From contig JAHLKG010000005.1 of NCBI GenBank assembly GCA_025526995.1, positions 1,054,001 to 1,118,000 of the forward strand: DNA of 64,000 bases, in the 5' to 3' direction. Of the stretch, positions 1,223 to 8,797 are shown one piece after another (position 1 is the stretch's first letter; every line of letters starts with the position of its first letter). This stretch comes from Powellomyces hirtus. Taxonomy: Eukaryota > Chytridiomycota > Chytridiomycetes > Spizellomycetales > Powellomycetaceae. The notes below the pieces were generated by a model. It was not told the origin of the DNA. It worked only from the letters and a program-made list of their open reading frames with translations, and did not search any database. Both the position numbers and the translations under genes were made by a program.

Positions 1223-3043
1223 TTATAGCTTGGAAAGAGGTTTCGCTGGGAATTGTGCTCCTACATTATCTTCAATCACCGCAAAGAGTGCATCGAGTTT
1301 GTCTCCGGGTGATTGGATGTGAAGGCAGCGTTTGGGTAGACCTTCAAGAGCGACCAATTCACGAGGGGCAATGTCAGCGTAGGTTAACGGTTTAAAACCG
1401 CGTTGTGGGGATAGTGCGGGAGCGTTCTCGTTAATGGCTTTGAGGACGGCTTCCGGAAATTTGCCCGGGCTGGCAGTGGCTAGACAGATTGTGTGCGTTG
1501 ATTTGATACTCGAAGTGGTAGGGGTTGTGGAAGTGGCAACGAGCTGTTCAGCGGCGACGACACCAACTGCCGTGTGAGGATCAAGGACGTACGCCAATGC
1601 GGGACGTTCAGCACCATGATACGGCTTTGGCGCCTCATGCAGTAAGGTGTACTGATGGTGATAGTAGCGCGTTATAGCGTCCGAGGTGAGGGCATCCGAT
1701 GTGCAGAACGATGTGAACAGTCCTTTCGAGCTGTTAAATATCGTTTCGGGGACTGTGAATCCGCCTTTGTCACGCAGTTCTCGCATCCATTGAACCATGT
1801 TTGCACTGGCATGCTTTGCGCAAACGTCCGCGTCGGAGTTCGTGCTGCGTCTATCTTCAATGGAAAGATACCAGAGCAAACGCTCAAAGTTGGAGCTGAC
1901 GAGAATGTCCATGGCCGGGGAGAGCGTCTGCTTCACCGGCTCGCTACCATTGCGAGACTGCTTCTTTTCATATCGACCGGATTGGAAGAACCGATGCAGG
2001 ATATCGTTTTCGTTTGTTGCGACGATGAGGCGGTCAATGGGGAGGCCCATGCGGACCGCGTAGTAGCCAGCAAGCACGTCACCAAAGTTCCCTGTTGGAA
2101 CACTGTACTGGATTTTAGTCAATGCAGCATAGCTGCTGGCCCCAGACGGTGTTCCAATGCGTCGCAATACTGCAAAGTACGAATAGAAATAGTAGGACGT
2201 CTGTGCTAGAATACGTGCCCAGTTGATGGAGTTGACTGCTGCGAGGTGGAAGCGTCTGCGGAACTTCTGATCTGAGAATGCTGCTTTGACCATGACCTGA
2301 CAGTCATCAAAAGTTCCTTCGATGGCGACGTTATGTACATTCCTATCCAGAACGCTTGTCATCTGCTGTTCCTGTACGGGCGATATGCGTCCTTCCGGGT
2401 GCAGGATGAAAACATCCACATTCTTCTTTCCCCGCAATCCATAGATGGCTGCACCACCGGTGTCGCCACTGGTAGCACCCAGCACTGTGATTCCAAACTT
2501 GGTCGCGCTGTTCCGGTTCCGCCTCTCGAGAAAGAATTCAAACAGATTACCCAGAAACTGAAGCGCAACATCCTTGAACGCGAATGTGGGTCCATGGAAC
2601 AGTTCCAGTACGTAAAGATTTTCCAAATCCCCGTTACCATTTCCCACGGCCACGTTTGGCAACTTCTTCAGCGGAGTAACTTCCGGGGTCGAAAATGTCC
2701 CGAAAGACCGCGTAACAATATCAGCCAGATCTGCATCAGATATTTCCTCATGTGATATAAATTTTCTGAAGATTTTGGTGGCAAGCTGTGGGAATGATAG
2801 GTTTGACCACTGGTGGATTTCGGAGAGCGGAGTCTGTGGGATGGAGTGAGGAATGTACAAGCCGCCGTCGGGAGCAAGCCCTTCAAAGACTGCTTCTTCG
2901 AACGACAGATCCGTCGAGGTTCCTCGTGTGGAGCGATATCGCATATTTGTCGAAAAGCGGCCCACGCTGATTCTGTTGCGGGGATTCCACGATGCAGTAA
3001 ATCTTGGGAATGGGATACCGTCCGTGGCGCGAGCCGAACGCAA
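1223..3043 (-). CDS. THR4: Threonine synthase
   Basis: Intronless ORF of 606 codons. It converts O-phosphohomoserine to threonine with pyridoxal phosphate, the last step of threonine synthesis. Family signatures are clear: MRYRSTRG near the N terminus, LAPDGGLYIP, the PLP-lysine segment ELFHGPTFAFKDVALQF (Lys157), GATSGDTGGAA, NSINWARILAQ, YSVPTGNFGD and the C-terminal DPHTAVG. Fungal THR4 proteins normally begin close to the YRSTRG motif, so the true start may be Met34 (position 2944); the first 33 residues are Arg-rich and could be a targeting presequence or untranslated leader. Divergently transcribed from the CYRI gene across about 520 bases. Confidence 0.95.
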   Translation of the reverse strand: MRSARATDGIPFPRFTASWNPRNRISVGRFSTNMRYRSTRGTSTDLSFEEAVFEGLAPDGGLYIPHSIPQTPLSEIHQWSNLSFPQLATKIFRKFISHEEISDADLADIVTRSFGTFSTPEVTPLKKLPNVAVGNGNGDLENLYVLELFHGPTFAFKDVALQFLGNLFEFFLERRNRNSATKFGITVLGATSGDTGGAAIYGLRGKKNVDVFILHPEGRISPVQEQQMTSVLDRNVHNVAIEGTFDDCQVMVKAAFSDQKFRRRFHLAAVNSINWARILAQTSYYFYSYFAVLRRIGTPSGASSYAALTKIQYSVPTGNFGDVLAGYYAVRMGLPIDRLIVATNENDILHRFFQSGRYEKKQSRNGSEPVKQTLSPAMDILVSSNFERLLWYLSIEDRRSTNSDADVCAKHASANMVQWMRELRDKGGFTVPETIFNSSKGLFTSFCTSDALTSDAITRYYHHQYTLLHEAPKPYHGAERPALAYVLDPHTAVGVVAAEQLVATSTTPTTSSIKSTHTICLATASPGKFPEAVLKAINENAPALSPQRGFKPLTYADIAPRELVALEGLPKRCLHIQSPGDKLDALFAVIEDNVGAQFPAKPLSKL

Positions 3044-3567
3044 GCCAAGTGGGTACAGTAAGCGCGCGCCTCTCCGCTGGCCGCTCGTGCTGCCTTTGTT
3101 CTTTCCCCCATCAACCCCGTCAACCGTCTGCCGTTCGTCGCCCCGCTGCGTCCGCCTGACACTTTATTTCTTGTTTGTTTAACGAGAAGCCGACGTTCCC
3201 TCAAGTACCTCGTCCGCGCCTTAACAGTTCGGCCGCAAAACGCATTGCGCTTGCCGGGACACCCCGCTCGCCTTTTACCTGTATTTGAGCGTGTATTTGT
3301 CTAAGCGCTACTCCGCTACCGTATTCGACTCCACATCGACTCCAATTTTGCGACTTTTGGAATATATCGTACATATACAACGAACGAATCGAATCAGCGC
3401 TCTGAATCTTACTCCGCCGTCGAACCTTTCAGTTTGCGATTTTGACGCGCGCTGCATCACCGCGATTGTAAACGAACCGCAACTTCGTACATATTTCACA
3501 TTTCGGACCTGAACAACCGAAGACCAGCGCCCTACCACGACTATTCACACCGCGCCGAGACGAAAAC
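3044..3567. promoter_or_regulatory. Intergenic region between divergent THR4 and CYRI
   Basis: This 524-base gap separates two outward-facing start codons and must hold both promoters. It is moderately AT-rich in its centre (about 3340-3420). I see no TATA box that can be assigned to either gene and no conserved coding frame. Confidence 0.4.
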
Positions 3568-5217
3568 ATGGGAGGGCTGCTCTCTCTTCTTCGAGGTGGT
3601 GGCCCGACAGACGAGCCACCGATTGACATTCCGGTGGATTTGGAAGGTACGCGTTGAGACGGAGCGGACTTTTGCCAGGAAAGGCCAGGGCGACATAACA
3701 GCTGGATCAAAACCTCCGCTTGGCTTGGCAATGTTCTGAGCATTGGGAGCATGCGTGTGGTGCCGCGTTGGAATTGAAATACTAAATATTATCCCTATCA
3801 CAGGCGCGCAACCCACGGCTGAAGAAGTTGAGTTGTACAACTACATAAGACAGATCATGGCGCCAGCGCCTGGATACCTGGATGCGTTGCGGGGATATGT
3901 TGGATGCCAGGAAGAAATTCGGAAGGTCAGTGGGGTGCCCGCGATGCCGTTTAAAAGCTTTGTTGAACATGGTTATGGTTTTTTTGGATGCCTATGTGTC
4001 CTGTATTTAGGCTATCTCTACTCCAAGCCCAGAAACAGAGGAAGCTGCATGGGCAGCCGTATGTCCCGCTGTCTTGAAATTGCGGGAATATTACGAGTTT
4101 GCCCAGAGACTTGGTAAGAATGCTTGCGAAAAGAATTGCAACCGCGCGCATATGCACGAGCCTTCTTATCGAATGATTGATCTCACACGACCCCTCAAAT
4201 CGTTAAAGAGGAGGCATTTCCGCGCCTTTTGGCTTTCCTGTGTACTGGAGATGTAATGCAAAATCTGGAGGTCCGACAAGCGACGGCAAAGCAGATGGCG
4301 GACGTGCTGCACTTTGTGTCCCTCTTTGATGAGCTAAAGGTGAGAAAATGGAAACGGAGGGATGAGTGTATTTTGTTTCCTCCATTACTTTCTCTGTCAA
4401 TGTGACTTGATGAAACCAGTCGCTAAGAGATTTTCCATCTCACTTCAGATGGGTAATCCGAATGTTCAAAATGATTTCTCATACTATCGCCGGACGTCAA
4501 GCCGAATGCGAATGGCAAACCCAGTAAGCATTTTTGACCTCTCTGGTCCTCTGCGATCCTATTTCAGCTGGTTGACTTACCCCACACAAATCTAGGCGCA
4601 ACAGAACTTGGTTGTCCCCGACGAACTGGCCAACAGGATGTCGTTGTTTTATGCTCACGCGACTCCAATGACAAAATCGCTTGTGGACGCAACAATAAGG
4701 CTGGTGAAGGAGGCAAGTTAGCCAATTCTGAATTGAAGCAATCCGTCGACGGCGGTTTCACGAATTAAGGTGCACAAGGTTTTAACAATCTTTTGTCGCT
4801 CACATATGTAGAACCGAACGGTAACAGCGGACGCGGCAACGACGATATTGTCCATCATATCCGGCATCTGTTATAACGCCGTGATAAAAGAACGAGCACA
4901 GGGCGCCATGGTTCACTATTGTCTTCGGGTGCTTGTCGTATCTATCATCCTATACGACCATATGGATCCGGAGGGTGCCTTTGGGAAGAACTCCAAAGTC
5001 AATGTGAGTTTGATGATGCTGGGGCTGTTAGGGTTCCAGGTGATCCAGCACAGACGATTAACTCTAATTGCGTCCACAGATCCGAGCGTCAGTTAGAGTC
5101 ATTCAAACATCCGGCGGGTCCGGCAGCAATAACCTGCTGAACGCCCTGCGATACACGACGTTGCACCTGAACGACGAGTCCACACCAAAGTCAATCAAGC
5201 TGATGCTTGCCGCGTAG
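3568..5217 (+). CDS. CYRI / FAM49 (DUF1394) Rac1-interacting regulator of SCAR/WAVE
   Basis: Eight exons join to 318 residues: 3568..3646, 3804..3925, 4011..4113, 4209..4339, 4449..4523, 4596..4712, 4812..5003, 5080..5217. Animal CYRI-B is about 324 residues and matches along the whole length. Examples are GAQPT near the start, [64 protein letters not shown]-type helix with ILYDH, GAFGK-SK, and the C-terminal [18 protein letters not shown] binds active Rac1 and opposes SCAR/WAVE-Arp2/3 actin polymerisation. The arginine pair needed for Rac binding in mammals is present (Arg159-Arg160 in YYRRT), and the protein begins Met-Gly-Gly, compatible with N-myristoylation. Intron 6 starts with GC (AG|GCAAGT) rather than GT. 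Confidence 0.93.
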
Positions 5218-5830
5218 AACCCGCAGCGCCACTTTCTGGAACCAGCGCGGGGTCGGAGAGGACTCATTTGTTTGTCTTTTGCTTTTCGCGCGCGCTTTCT
5301 TTTGTTTCCCGCCTACGCGAGCAGCACATTGGCTTGCGCCCCCGTTTCGCCCCGGCCTATCTTGCCTTATTGCTTGGGGTTAGAAACATCCTCTTGTACA
5401 TGGGCCTGCATGGGCATTCCCGCTCAAATTCTGCCTTAACGCAATACATTTCCCCTTCTCATTTTCCATCTGCATTGCGGCAACAAATAGAACCGTTATT
5501 CTGCAAGGCACATTCCTGTGCCTCAGCAAACATTGTTCGGAATGCAATTTTCGTCGCTTCTAATACTTATTTTAGAGTGTAGCAGAATGAGCCACCTTCG
5601 GGGGAAAATGTTCTGGAGAGAGCCACCTTGAAACCCACAGCTGACTGGCTTGATTGCTCCAAGTCACAAAGCTCCGCCTGCCGTCTTTACTGTAGAATCA
5701 TCCTCATCACCAGCACGAAGAAGCAGTGAATATCTCGGTGAACTGGGATCGACTCGATTACATTGGATAGAGGCTACATAACTGCACATAGGGAACGATT
5801 GGGGACATTCGTCCACCTGGTTGGAAGGCC
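5218..5830. other. Intergenic, no gene seen
   Basis: This 613-base stretch is the 3' flank of CYRI and promoter of the SWIM-finger gene. Short open frames exist but none shows codon or domain character. No repeat or RNA gene was recognised. Confidence 0.5.
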
Positions 5831-6790
5831 ATGTCGACGGGGTCATTTCCGAGCGGGGGCGTCGACATTTGCACTGTTAAAGAAGCCGCCGCTCCTGGGT
5901 CGTTTGCCAAAGGTCTCGTCCTCTCCCGCAGTGGCGACAGCATTCACGACATATCTGTCGTGAAATCGAGCGATGGCCAAATCATTGCGGTCACCGGGTC
6001 GGTCAAAGGACAAGGCACGTATCGCGTCAAACTCAACATTCCTTTGTTGACGCCGCGGCAGTGGGACAGCCAGTGCTCGTGCCCGGATGATCGTGGCGGC
6101 ATATGCAAGCATACCGTTGCGGTGTTCTTGAAAGTTTTCCCACAGCTTCCCCACGACCACGGTCCGCACTGCCCCTGTCCAGACCCGACGGCGACGACAA
6201 GACAATCGGCTGTGGACAACAGACTGCCGGATGAGGCCGCTCGCATAGGGAGCGTTCTCTCGGAGGTGAGCCCCGAGGAGATTGTTGCGCTTCTGCGCAC
6301 GGTGATGAGTTCCGGAACACCCGAGCAACTGGCATCAATGTCGGTCATTTTCCCGAACACAATGTTTCCAGCGTTGAAAGCCGCAACGCACTGTCAACGC
6401 TGCCATAAGAACTTTGATCCACTGTACAACACCCCGGCGAAGATGCCTTGCAAAATTCCACATGAGGAGACCGGCCAAGCATATCACATGAGAACGTATC
6501 AAGATTCCCGTGGCAGTGACTACCAAACGGGTTGTTGCGACAAGCATGTGCACGTAAGCGGTGGCTGGGGCTCATACGACTTGGCAGGGTACTGCTTTGA
6601 AGGATTGCACACGGGCGACCCAGATCGGGTTGACTACAATGATGTGACGATAAAGCCATGCGATGAGTGCTCGGACTGTGATGAAGAGCAAATCAGTGGT
6701 AGCGAGGAAGAAAGAGATACCGCTGATGCTCGTGGAGGGGACGATGATTGCCAGATCTTGGGTTACACTGGCCTGAAGAGGAAGCGCTGA
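5831..6790 (+). CDS. SWIM zinc-finger protein with a Cys/His-rich C-terminal region
   Basis: Single-exon ORF of 319 codons. A SWIM finger of the form CxC-x7-CxH is visible at residues 82-94 (CSCPDDRGGICKH), preceded by the usual hydrophobic/basic run (YRVKLNI). SWIM domains bind zinc and act in DNA or protein binding. From about residue 190 a second Cys/His cluster follows (HCQRCHKNFDP, then CKIPHEE, then GCCDKHVH and a late GYCFEGLH), which looks like an independent zinc-binding module that I cannot name. The tail has CDECSDCDEEQ, an acidic run, and ends in basic KRKR, possibly a nuclear signal. No orthologue is recognised; function unknown. Start chosen as the first Met of the open frame. 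Confidence 0.8.
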   Translation: MSTGSFPSGGVDICTVKEAAAPGSFAKGLVLSRSGDSIHDISVVKSSDGQIIAVTGSVKGQGTYRVKLNIPLLTPRQWDSQCSCPDDRGGICKHTVAVFLKVFPQLPHDHGPHCPCPDPTATTRQSAVDNRLPDEAARIGSVLSEVSPEEIVALLRTVMSSGTPEQLASMSVIFPNTMFPALKAATHCQRCHKNFDPLYNTPAKMPCKIPHEETGQAYHMRTYQDSRGSDYQTGCCDKHVHVSGGWGSYDLAGYCFEGLHTGDPDRVDYNDVTIKPCDECSDCDEEQISGSEEERDTADARGGDDDCQILGYTGLKRKR

Positions 6791-7084
6791 TCTCGCGGTT
6801 GCCTTCTCGAGTATATGGATAGTCATAGCGATATGAGGCGCAAATTTAGATAGGTGTGAATCACTGTTATATGTAGACCACTGCGGAGGGTTCCATGGAG
6901 CTTCTTGACCGCATCTCCTTCATAAAGACCTTTGCTAATGCGTTCGTCGCGCCTGTTCCCAAACCATGTTTCTACCGTACAAGTGTAGTGTGCATCATGA
7001 TCGAGCAAAAGGGATCAAAGGGACGCCGAAGGGACGCGTTGTTCTAGCCCTCGCGTCTCGGCGAGATCACTTTTCTCAGAAGGA

Positions 7085-8797
7085 ATGGACGAACCTTCCT
7101 CTCTCAGAAGGCGCCGCCAGCAACAAGTCCTGTCGGAGTCGTCTCGTACTGCACCCCAAGCATGGCACCCGGATATCCCGGCGCCACCACTGTCAATACC
7201 GTTCTGGTCTCCTTTGGACATTCTCATGATATGCGTGATCTTGTTCGACATTTACCAGGCACCATATACGAAGGTTGAAGAATCATTCAATCTCCAAGCG
7301 ACTCACGATCTCCTGAAATACGGCCCGTTAGAGCGAGACAATTATGACCACCTACAGTTTCCCGGGGTAGTGCCACGGACTTTCGTGGGACCGTTGTTGA
7401 TCTACTTTACGATCCTGCCATTCCGGATGGTGTTTGGGCTGAACGGGAGCGGTAATCTGATCTTATGGCAGTATGTTGTTCGAGGAGTCCTTGGAACTGC
7501 AGTTGCAGCGTCTTTAGCGGGCGTGCGAAGAGCGGTGTGGCGAGAGTTTGGAAAGGGTGCGGCTGATTGGTTTGGCGTCTTCACGGTTGTGCAGTTCCAT
7601 CTCATGTTCTGGGCGAGCAGAACGCTGCCCAACATGTTCGCTCTCGTCTTCGTCAACATTGCAATTACTCACTGGATCGGAGCTCGACGACACGATGCTT
7701 CCCCGGACCTGTTACGAATATGCACATACCTCGTGTTTACGACAGCAGTGTTTCGATGCGATGTGATTCTTCTGGCGGCGCCAATCCTTTTGGCGGAAGT
7801 GGCAGGTGCAACCAACGTCACGTCTACGTTCTTTGCCCTAGTCTGGCATGCTTTGAAGGTTGCACTCCCGTGCATCGCATTGACATTGGCTGTGGATTCG
7901 TGGTTCTGGAAACAGCCATTGTATTGGCCGGAATTGCGTGTCCTCCTATTCAACACTGTCGACAATGGCTCTGTTGCTTATGGCGTCGAGCCTCCTTACG
8001 CTTATGTTCTGCGATATCTCCCAAAGATCACTCCTCTGGGTGTTCCCCTTGCGCTTTACGCGTACTATTCTGTTCCTGCGACGAGACGGTACCTTATTCC
8101 CGTCTCGGCGTTTGTGGGTCTGTACTCGTTGCTACCGCATAAAGAGTGGCGATTCATCATCTACGCCGTCCCAATCATTAACGCTATGAGTGCCGTTGCG
8201 GCGAGCACCATGGCGCGCAACGGTCACCGCCATATCGTGCTGCTGTTGAAGCTTGCTTTGATTATGCAGTGCGCTGTCTCGTTTGCCATGGTGTTTGTCT
8301 CGGCGCGCAACTATCCCGGAGGAGAAGCCCTTGCACGGTTGGATGCCTACCTTGCTGACTCGCCATTCCCGCCCACGCATCCGATCCGGGCTCACATTGA
8401 TGTGGCTGCCGCTATATCCGGCGCGTCGCTTTTCGGGCAAAGCTCAAATGTTACCTACTGTAAAGCCGAGAACATTACAACTGCGGACGAGTATTGGACC
8501 GCAGATTACACCCATCTGCTAACAGCTACTCCGGATCTACATGGAACGTCGCGCTGGAAAGTGATTGACGTGGTTTATGGCCTCTCAGGCGTGCGCTTGT
8601 ACTTCGGAGGTCCAAAGGCATGGTTGCAAATGTCAATGAGAAAACTGCGCCATAGACAGCTGACTTGGGCACCGGAAGATGGCATTTTTGGACTGCCATT
8701 ACCAATTGTTATTACGTCCGATCCGAAGATATGGATTTTGGAAAGAATCCTCGATAGGAATCAAAGCGTCACTTTCAATGAGTATGGCAAAGGCTAG
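7085..8797 (+). CDS. ALG12: Dol-P-Man:Man7GlcNAc2-PP-dolichol alpha-1,6-mannosyltransferase
   Basis: Intronless 570-codon ORF of the GT22 family. ALG12 adds the eighth mannose to the lipid-linked oligosaccharide in the ER lumen, using dolichol-phosphate mannose. Family marks: the catalytic first-loop motif YTKVEESFN (acidic pair at 65-66), HDLLKYG, then YDHLQFPGVVPRTFVGP, which is diagnostic for ALG12 within GT22. Later come FWASRTLPNMFA and the LLPHKEWRFI motif. Multiple hydrophobic helices follow throughout, as expected for a GT-C enzyme of about 10 or more transmembrane segments. Length agrees with fungal orthologues (about 550 residues). Confidence 0.94.
   Translation: MDEPSSLRRRRQQQVLSESSRTAPQAWHPDIPAPPLSIPFWSPLDILMICVILFDIYQAPYTKVEESFNLQATHDLLKYGPLERDNYDHLQFPGVVPRTFVGPLLIYFTILPFRMVFGLNGSGNLILWQYVVRGVLGTAVAASLAGVRRAVWREFGKGAADWFGVFTVVQFHLMFWASRTLPNMFALVFVNIAITHWIGARRHDASPDLLRICTYLVFTTAVFRCDVILLAAPILLAEVAGATNVTSTFFALVWHALKVALPCIALTLAVDSWFWKQPLYWPELRVLLFNTVDNGSVAYGVEPPYAYVLRYLPKITPLGVPLALYAYYSVPATRRYLIPVSAFVGLYSLLPHKEWRFIIYAVPIINAMSAVAASTMARNGHRHIVLLLKLALIMQCAVSFAMVFVSARNYPGGEALARLDAYLADSPFPPTHPIRAHIDVAAAISGASLFGQSSNVTYCKAENITTADEYWTADYTHLLTATPDLHGTSRWKVIDVVYGLSGVRLYFGGPKAWLQMSMRKLRHRQLTWAPEDGIFGLPLPIVITSDPKIWILERILDRNQSVTFNEYGKG

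Follow-up and report, generated by a model that had tools for sequence, protein, structure and literature searches.

A CYRI (FAM49) ortholog alongside SCAR/WAVE genes in the chytrid Powellomyces hirtus

Analysis of a 64,000-nucleotide stretch of the chytrid fungus Powellomyces hirtus (hereafter the window, part of contig 5, which spans 1,591,103 bases in an assembly of 29.26 Mb and 60 contigs) revealed at positions 3568..5217 of the plus strand an eight-exon gene for a protein of 318 amino acids belonging to the CYRI (FAM49) family. We consider it very probable that this gene, the sole CYRI locus found, is a vertically inherited ortholog that most likely works as CYRI does in animals and Dictyostelium. 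Together with the genes for SCAR, CYFIP, Nap1 and Rac identified elsewhere in the assembly, it places a known brake and a known engine of actin-driven protrusion side by side in one chytrid genome.

The P. hirtus gene encodes a stand-alone CYRI protein

The Pfam profile PF07159 matches residues 20-313 of the 318 over its whole length (profile positions 1-301 of 301; 365.2 bits, E 3.3e-109), and a stand-alone PF07159 domain thus fills a protein of about 320 amino acids, as CYRI/FAM49 requires. In the PDB, CYRI-B was matched in three entries (6yjj, E 1.9e-82; 7ajk, E 4.6e-82; 7ajl, E 2.9e-79), with alignments beginning at query residue 20, 21 or 28 and ending at 316, and mouse CYRI-B is identical to the P. 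hirtus protein at 148 of 297 aligned positions (49.8%). The whole-domain match and an identity of about 50% to mouse CYRI-B bear out the first-pass annotation of this DNA, which had recognised the spliced 318-residue product as CYRI/FAM49. That annotation had also described the likeness to animal CYRI as running from end to end, which holds for residues 20-316; residues 1-19 were left unaligned with animal CYRI in the PDB search, only the initial Met-Gly being common to both. The CYRI fold was established by proxy, through an ortholog. Relative to vertebrate CYRI-B/FAM49B, the P. hirtus protein thus combines the whole domain, the Rac-contacting arginine pair, nearly all Rac contacts and the Met-Gly start with a diverged N-terminal segment and about half of the residues identical. 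Moreover, mammals have two genes, A and B (PMC6682259), whereas a single PF07159-only locus was found in the P. hirtus genome.

The Rac-binding surface is retained. We compared 13 interface residues, which are contacts, tested positions or CYFIP-conserved interface in the paper on the CYRI-B:Rac1 structure (PMC7955166). Twelve of them are identical in P. hirtus (in CYRI-B numbering, R64, M147, P150, Q153, N154, S157, R160, R161, N185, S188, L189 and A192), the sole difference being CYRI-B Q68, replaced by S70 in P. hirtus; in the same alignment, serine also occupies this position in Nematostella, Glomus and the CYFIP of P. hirtus itself. Arg159-Arg160 in the sequence YYRRT, whose conservation had been pointed out before and is seen both in the spliced product and in its alignment with CYRI-B, correspond to R160/R161 of CYRI-B, the pair needed for Rac1 binding. 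Homologs were examined as the best 120 of 1,215 matches: the arginine pair is invariant in all 51 of the 120 that were aligned, the motif QNDFSxYRR occurs in 119 and a Met-Gly start in 107. The Met1-Gly2 start noted earlier is indeed present in the spliced product, and a start resembling PS00008, which we take to be the N-myristoylation pattern, is found in 68 of the 120, the P. hirtus protein included, making Gly2 a putative acylation site.

The reading frame of the spliced gene, 957 nt (318 codons plus the stop), is built from exon 1 (3568..3646), which carries the Met-Gly start and N-terminal helix and is followed by a GT donor at 3647; exons 2 (3804..3925), 3 (4011..4113), 4 (4209..4339), 7 (4812..5003) and 8 (5080..5217, with the stop TAG at 5215-5217), each matched by PF07159; exon 5 (4449..4523), of 75 nt and in phase 0 at both ends, which encodes residues 146-170 and hence Gln152, Ser156, Arg159 and Arg160; and exon 6 (4596..4712), which ends at a GC donor and was compared with three deposited proteins, P0001, P0002 and P0009. 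Of the seven introns all but one are GT-AG; the exception is intron 6 (4713..4811), spliced as GC-AG. The deposited P. hirtus protein P0001, the best match listed at 99% identity, is our 318-residue product lacking VKE (207-209), as its gene model splices from a GT that precedes the GC donor by 9 nt. At this site the sequence is LLKENN in the ortholog P0002 and LVKENN in P0009, and because both keep residues there, the 318-residue product with the GC donor is favoured as the likelier model.

Two further deposited models deserve mention. A second P. hirtus entry, P0004 (PhCBS80983_g03589), equals our product minus exactly exon 5 and VKE, and is the only one of the 120 homologs without the Rac motif; it is either an annotation error or a Rac-blind isoform without exon 5. 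P0009, from Spizellomyces punctatus, has an odd C-terminus, SKHPAGPAA, similar to the frame 2 translation of the final P. hirtus exon; it probably reflects a mis-spliced gene model.

The same genome carries SCAR/WAVE machinery and Rac

Matches to PF05994 on contig 9 led to a CYFIP gene (809312-814697) that, spliced by hand, has 26 exons and encodes 1,265 amino acids, differing from the deposited P. hirtus protein P0121 at five of 1,263 positions; P0121 in turn matches CYFIP1 of the solved complex with E 2.4e-193. Nap1 is represented by seven PF09735 matches on contig 1 (best E 7.5e-37; unspliced profile matches), and the Arp2/3 subunit ARPC2 by a match on contig 12 (E 4.2e-49). SCAR was reached from a weak match (E 0.041) to a C-terminal piece of human WAVE1 and lies at 748616-750514 of contig 3, minus strand, with seven exons encoding 426 amino acids. 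The product has both an SHD and a proline run, as well as a WH2-like stretch and the acidic end EDDEWD. In the PDB, three WAVE1 sequences ranked ahead of N-WASP (7.5e-6), with E from 4.5e-19 (WAVE1 of the solved complex) to 3.4e-13. Aligned with the human SHD, residues 1-230 reached a score of 173, compared with an average of 32.8 and a highest value of 65 for 1,000 shuffles. Its WH2 was below the cut-off in Pfam (E 0.1), but this segment and the stretch that follows align with the WAVE1 C-terminus.

Other subunits were harder to trace. A reading frame at 1663681-1663932 of contig 1, itself a weak match (E 0.034), is a probable Abi: three Abi2 sequences of the WAVE complex were its first PDB matches (E 0.0099 to 0.087), followed by a homoserine dehydrogenase at 0.79. 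The PF07815 profile for Abi had no match in the genome, nor did the one human HSPC300 query used, a weak query without a positive control. Likewise, the N-terminal domain of human WAVE1 yielded no match, a false negative given that the C-terminal piece later led to SCAR, and empty searches of this kind are therefore no proof of absence. Among the other WH2 matches, those on contigs 4 and 3 (L027 and L028; both significant) were dropped as SCAR candidates, since both translations look like verprolin/WIP proteins and have a proline run ahead of an N-terminal WH2; a third lies on contig 30 (E 1.16). A WASP candidate on contig 22 has a WH1 match of E 0.089 alone, or 38.7 bits with its neighbours, followed by the CRIB-like ISAPTNFQYVSH.

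For the small GTPases we used what we take to be the human Rac1 letters and numbering. On this basis, residues 26-56 of a Rac on contig 15 (two exons joined by eye) are those of human Rac1 except for V51I, with A27, G30, S41 and W56 kept, and a Cdc42-like gene on contig 17 has K27, S30, A41 and F56. Positions 27, 30, 41 and 56 are the four given for Rac selectivity in PMC7955166.

The first-pass annotation had named SCAR/WAVE, CYFIP/Sra1, Nap1 and Rac as the genes to be sought in the rest of the genome, with the absence of SCAR or CYFIP fixed beforehand as evidence against conserved Rac signalling, and all four were found. Because they occur in the same genome with ARPC2, the WASP candidate and the probable Abi, a Rac-SCAR-CYRI circuit is very likely encoded in P. 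hirtus. The earlier proposal that this fungus keeps Rac-SCAR-Arp2/3 signalling hence stands at the level of its genes; its extension to crawling cannot be read from CYRI alone.

A predicted brake on SCAR-driven protrusion

Given the homology and the retained interface, P. hirtus CYRI should most likely bind Rac-GTP in competition with CYFIP and thereby damp SCAR and Arp2/3. By analogy with animals and Dictyostelium, the protein would sit at the plasma membrane via acylated Gly2, contact switch I of Rac-GTP through Arg159/Arg160, Gln152 and Ser156, and vie with the SCAR-complex subunit CYFIP, whose Rac-binding domain is homologous; this competition would then damp Arp2/3-driven protrusion, and CYRI may in this way act as a brake in the pseudopods of P. 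hirtus zoospores. Published work makes it plausible that the circuit operates in P. hirtus. The zoospores of Spizellomyces punctatus crawl, and the species has homologs of SCAR (SPPG_02302) and of WASP (SPPG_00537; PMC7213984); in work on Batrachochytrium, possession of both SCAR and WASP is predictive of pseudopods (PMC5461030); and WAVE has been lost in Dikarya and Mucoromycotina (PMC3298513).

Chytrid SCAR and chytrid crawling are thus already known, as are deposited chytrid orthologs of CYRI, many of them named "fam49a"; the conservation of CYRI in numerous phyla has also been described (PMC6682259). Among the papers listed in our literature searches, some of them cut short, none dealt with a fungal CYRI. 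Since Spizellomyces, which is among the nearest relative genera in the listed matches, is transformable, the feedback model developed in animals and Dictyostelium becomes testable in a relative of P. hirtus.

Origin and role of the gene

Two other origins for the gene were weighed and rejected, each being highly improbable. It could be an N-terminal CYFIP fragment that became detached, or an additional CYFIP, as PF07159 is shared by CYFIP and the P. hirtus CYFIP carries a comparable motif, NNDFSMYRR. However, the N-terminal part of this CYFIP is identical to P. hirtus CYRI at just 49 of 275 positions (17.8%, against the 49.8% for mouse CYRI-B) and belongs to a separate gene at another locus, and a tree of 30 CYRIs and five CYFIP domains sets the two families apart. 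The high resemblance to animal CYRI might instead suggest horizontal transfer from an animal, or contamination, for which we see hardly any room: the gene has eight exons and lies within a contig of the length given for that of the deposited P0001, and the nearest rows from other genera among the matches listed are chytrids at 78-89% identity (P0002, P0003 and P0005-P0009). These chytrid proteins, deposited as "Protein fam49a" from Geranomyces, Thoreauomyces and others, are direct orthologs with no notable difference, some models departing from ours by apparent annotation errors. In the tree, P. hirtus CYRI groups with those of Geranomyces, Fimicolochytrium, Phlyctochytrium, Gaertneriomyces and Borealophlyctis (support 100); five Glomeromycota (100), Piptocephalis and Basidiobolus (97), and Piromyces and Gonapodya (93) form other groups, and animal CYRIs fall outside the fungal clade (84). 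Many deeper nodes are weak (support 26 to 84) and we relied on these named groups alone, the pattern of which fits vertical inheritance.

Another rival reading concerns what the protein is used for. Glomus, Geosiphon, Rhizophagus, Diversispora, Ambispora, Entrophospora, Piptocephalis and Basidiobolus are fungi not known to form zoospores. Eight of the 120 listed homologs come from these genera (P0044, P0049, P0051, P0057, P0063, P0075, P0085 and P0112), all eight with QNDFSxYRR, and CYRI alone is therefore no marker of zoospore crawling, contrary to what had been proposed from the sequence initially. Seven of the eight were placed in the tree, in the supported Glomeromycota and Piptocephalis-Basidiobolus clades, which argues that CYRI outlived the flagellum. 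Such orthologs, and the macropinocytic role of mammalian CYRI-A (reported in PMC8236918), would accord with a CYRI that buffers Rac mainly outside SCAR-driven crawling, for example in polarised rhizoid or hyphal growth or in membrane uptake, its co-occurrence with SCAR being incidental. For P. hirtus we regard this as unlikely, since SCAR and CYFIP are kept in its genome and at least 14 named chytrid species are common to the CYRI and CYFIP lists, and we prefer a CYRI that would act on the SCAR complex.

In land fungi, CYRI itself persists, which poses the separate question of its role without pseudopods. We tentatively suggest that it may have survived the loss of crawling, and perhaps that of the SCAR complex, to serve as a SCAR-independent Rac buffer in the polarised growth of Glomeromycota, Piptocephalis and Basidiobolus. 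Two CYFIP protein searches, each capped at about 8,000 candidates (33 proteins from 7,992 and 16 from 7,989 scored), listed none from Glomeromycota, Piptocephalis, Basidiobolus, Piromyces or Gonapodya. Given the cap they are uninformative on this point, and several chytrids listed for CYRI, such as Spizellomyces punctatus and Nowakowskiella, are likewise missing from the species common to both lists.

Neighbouring reading frames

Pfam matches identified three reading frames around the gene in the window. Upstream of CYRI and on the opposite strand lies a threonine synthase-like frame (1223-3163, minus strand), and on the plus strand are a frame with a SWIM zinc finger (5792-6790) and one resembling Alg9 mannosyltransferase (7001-8797).
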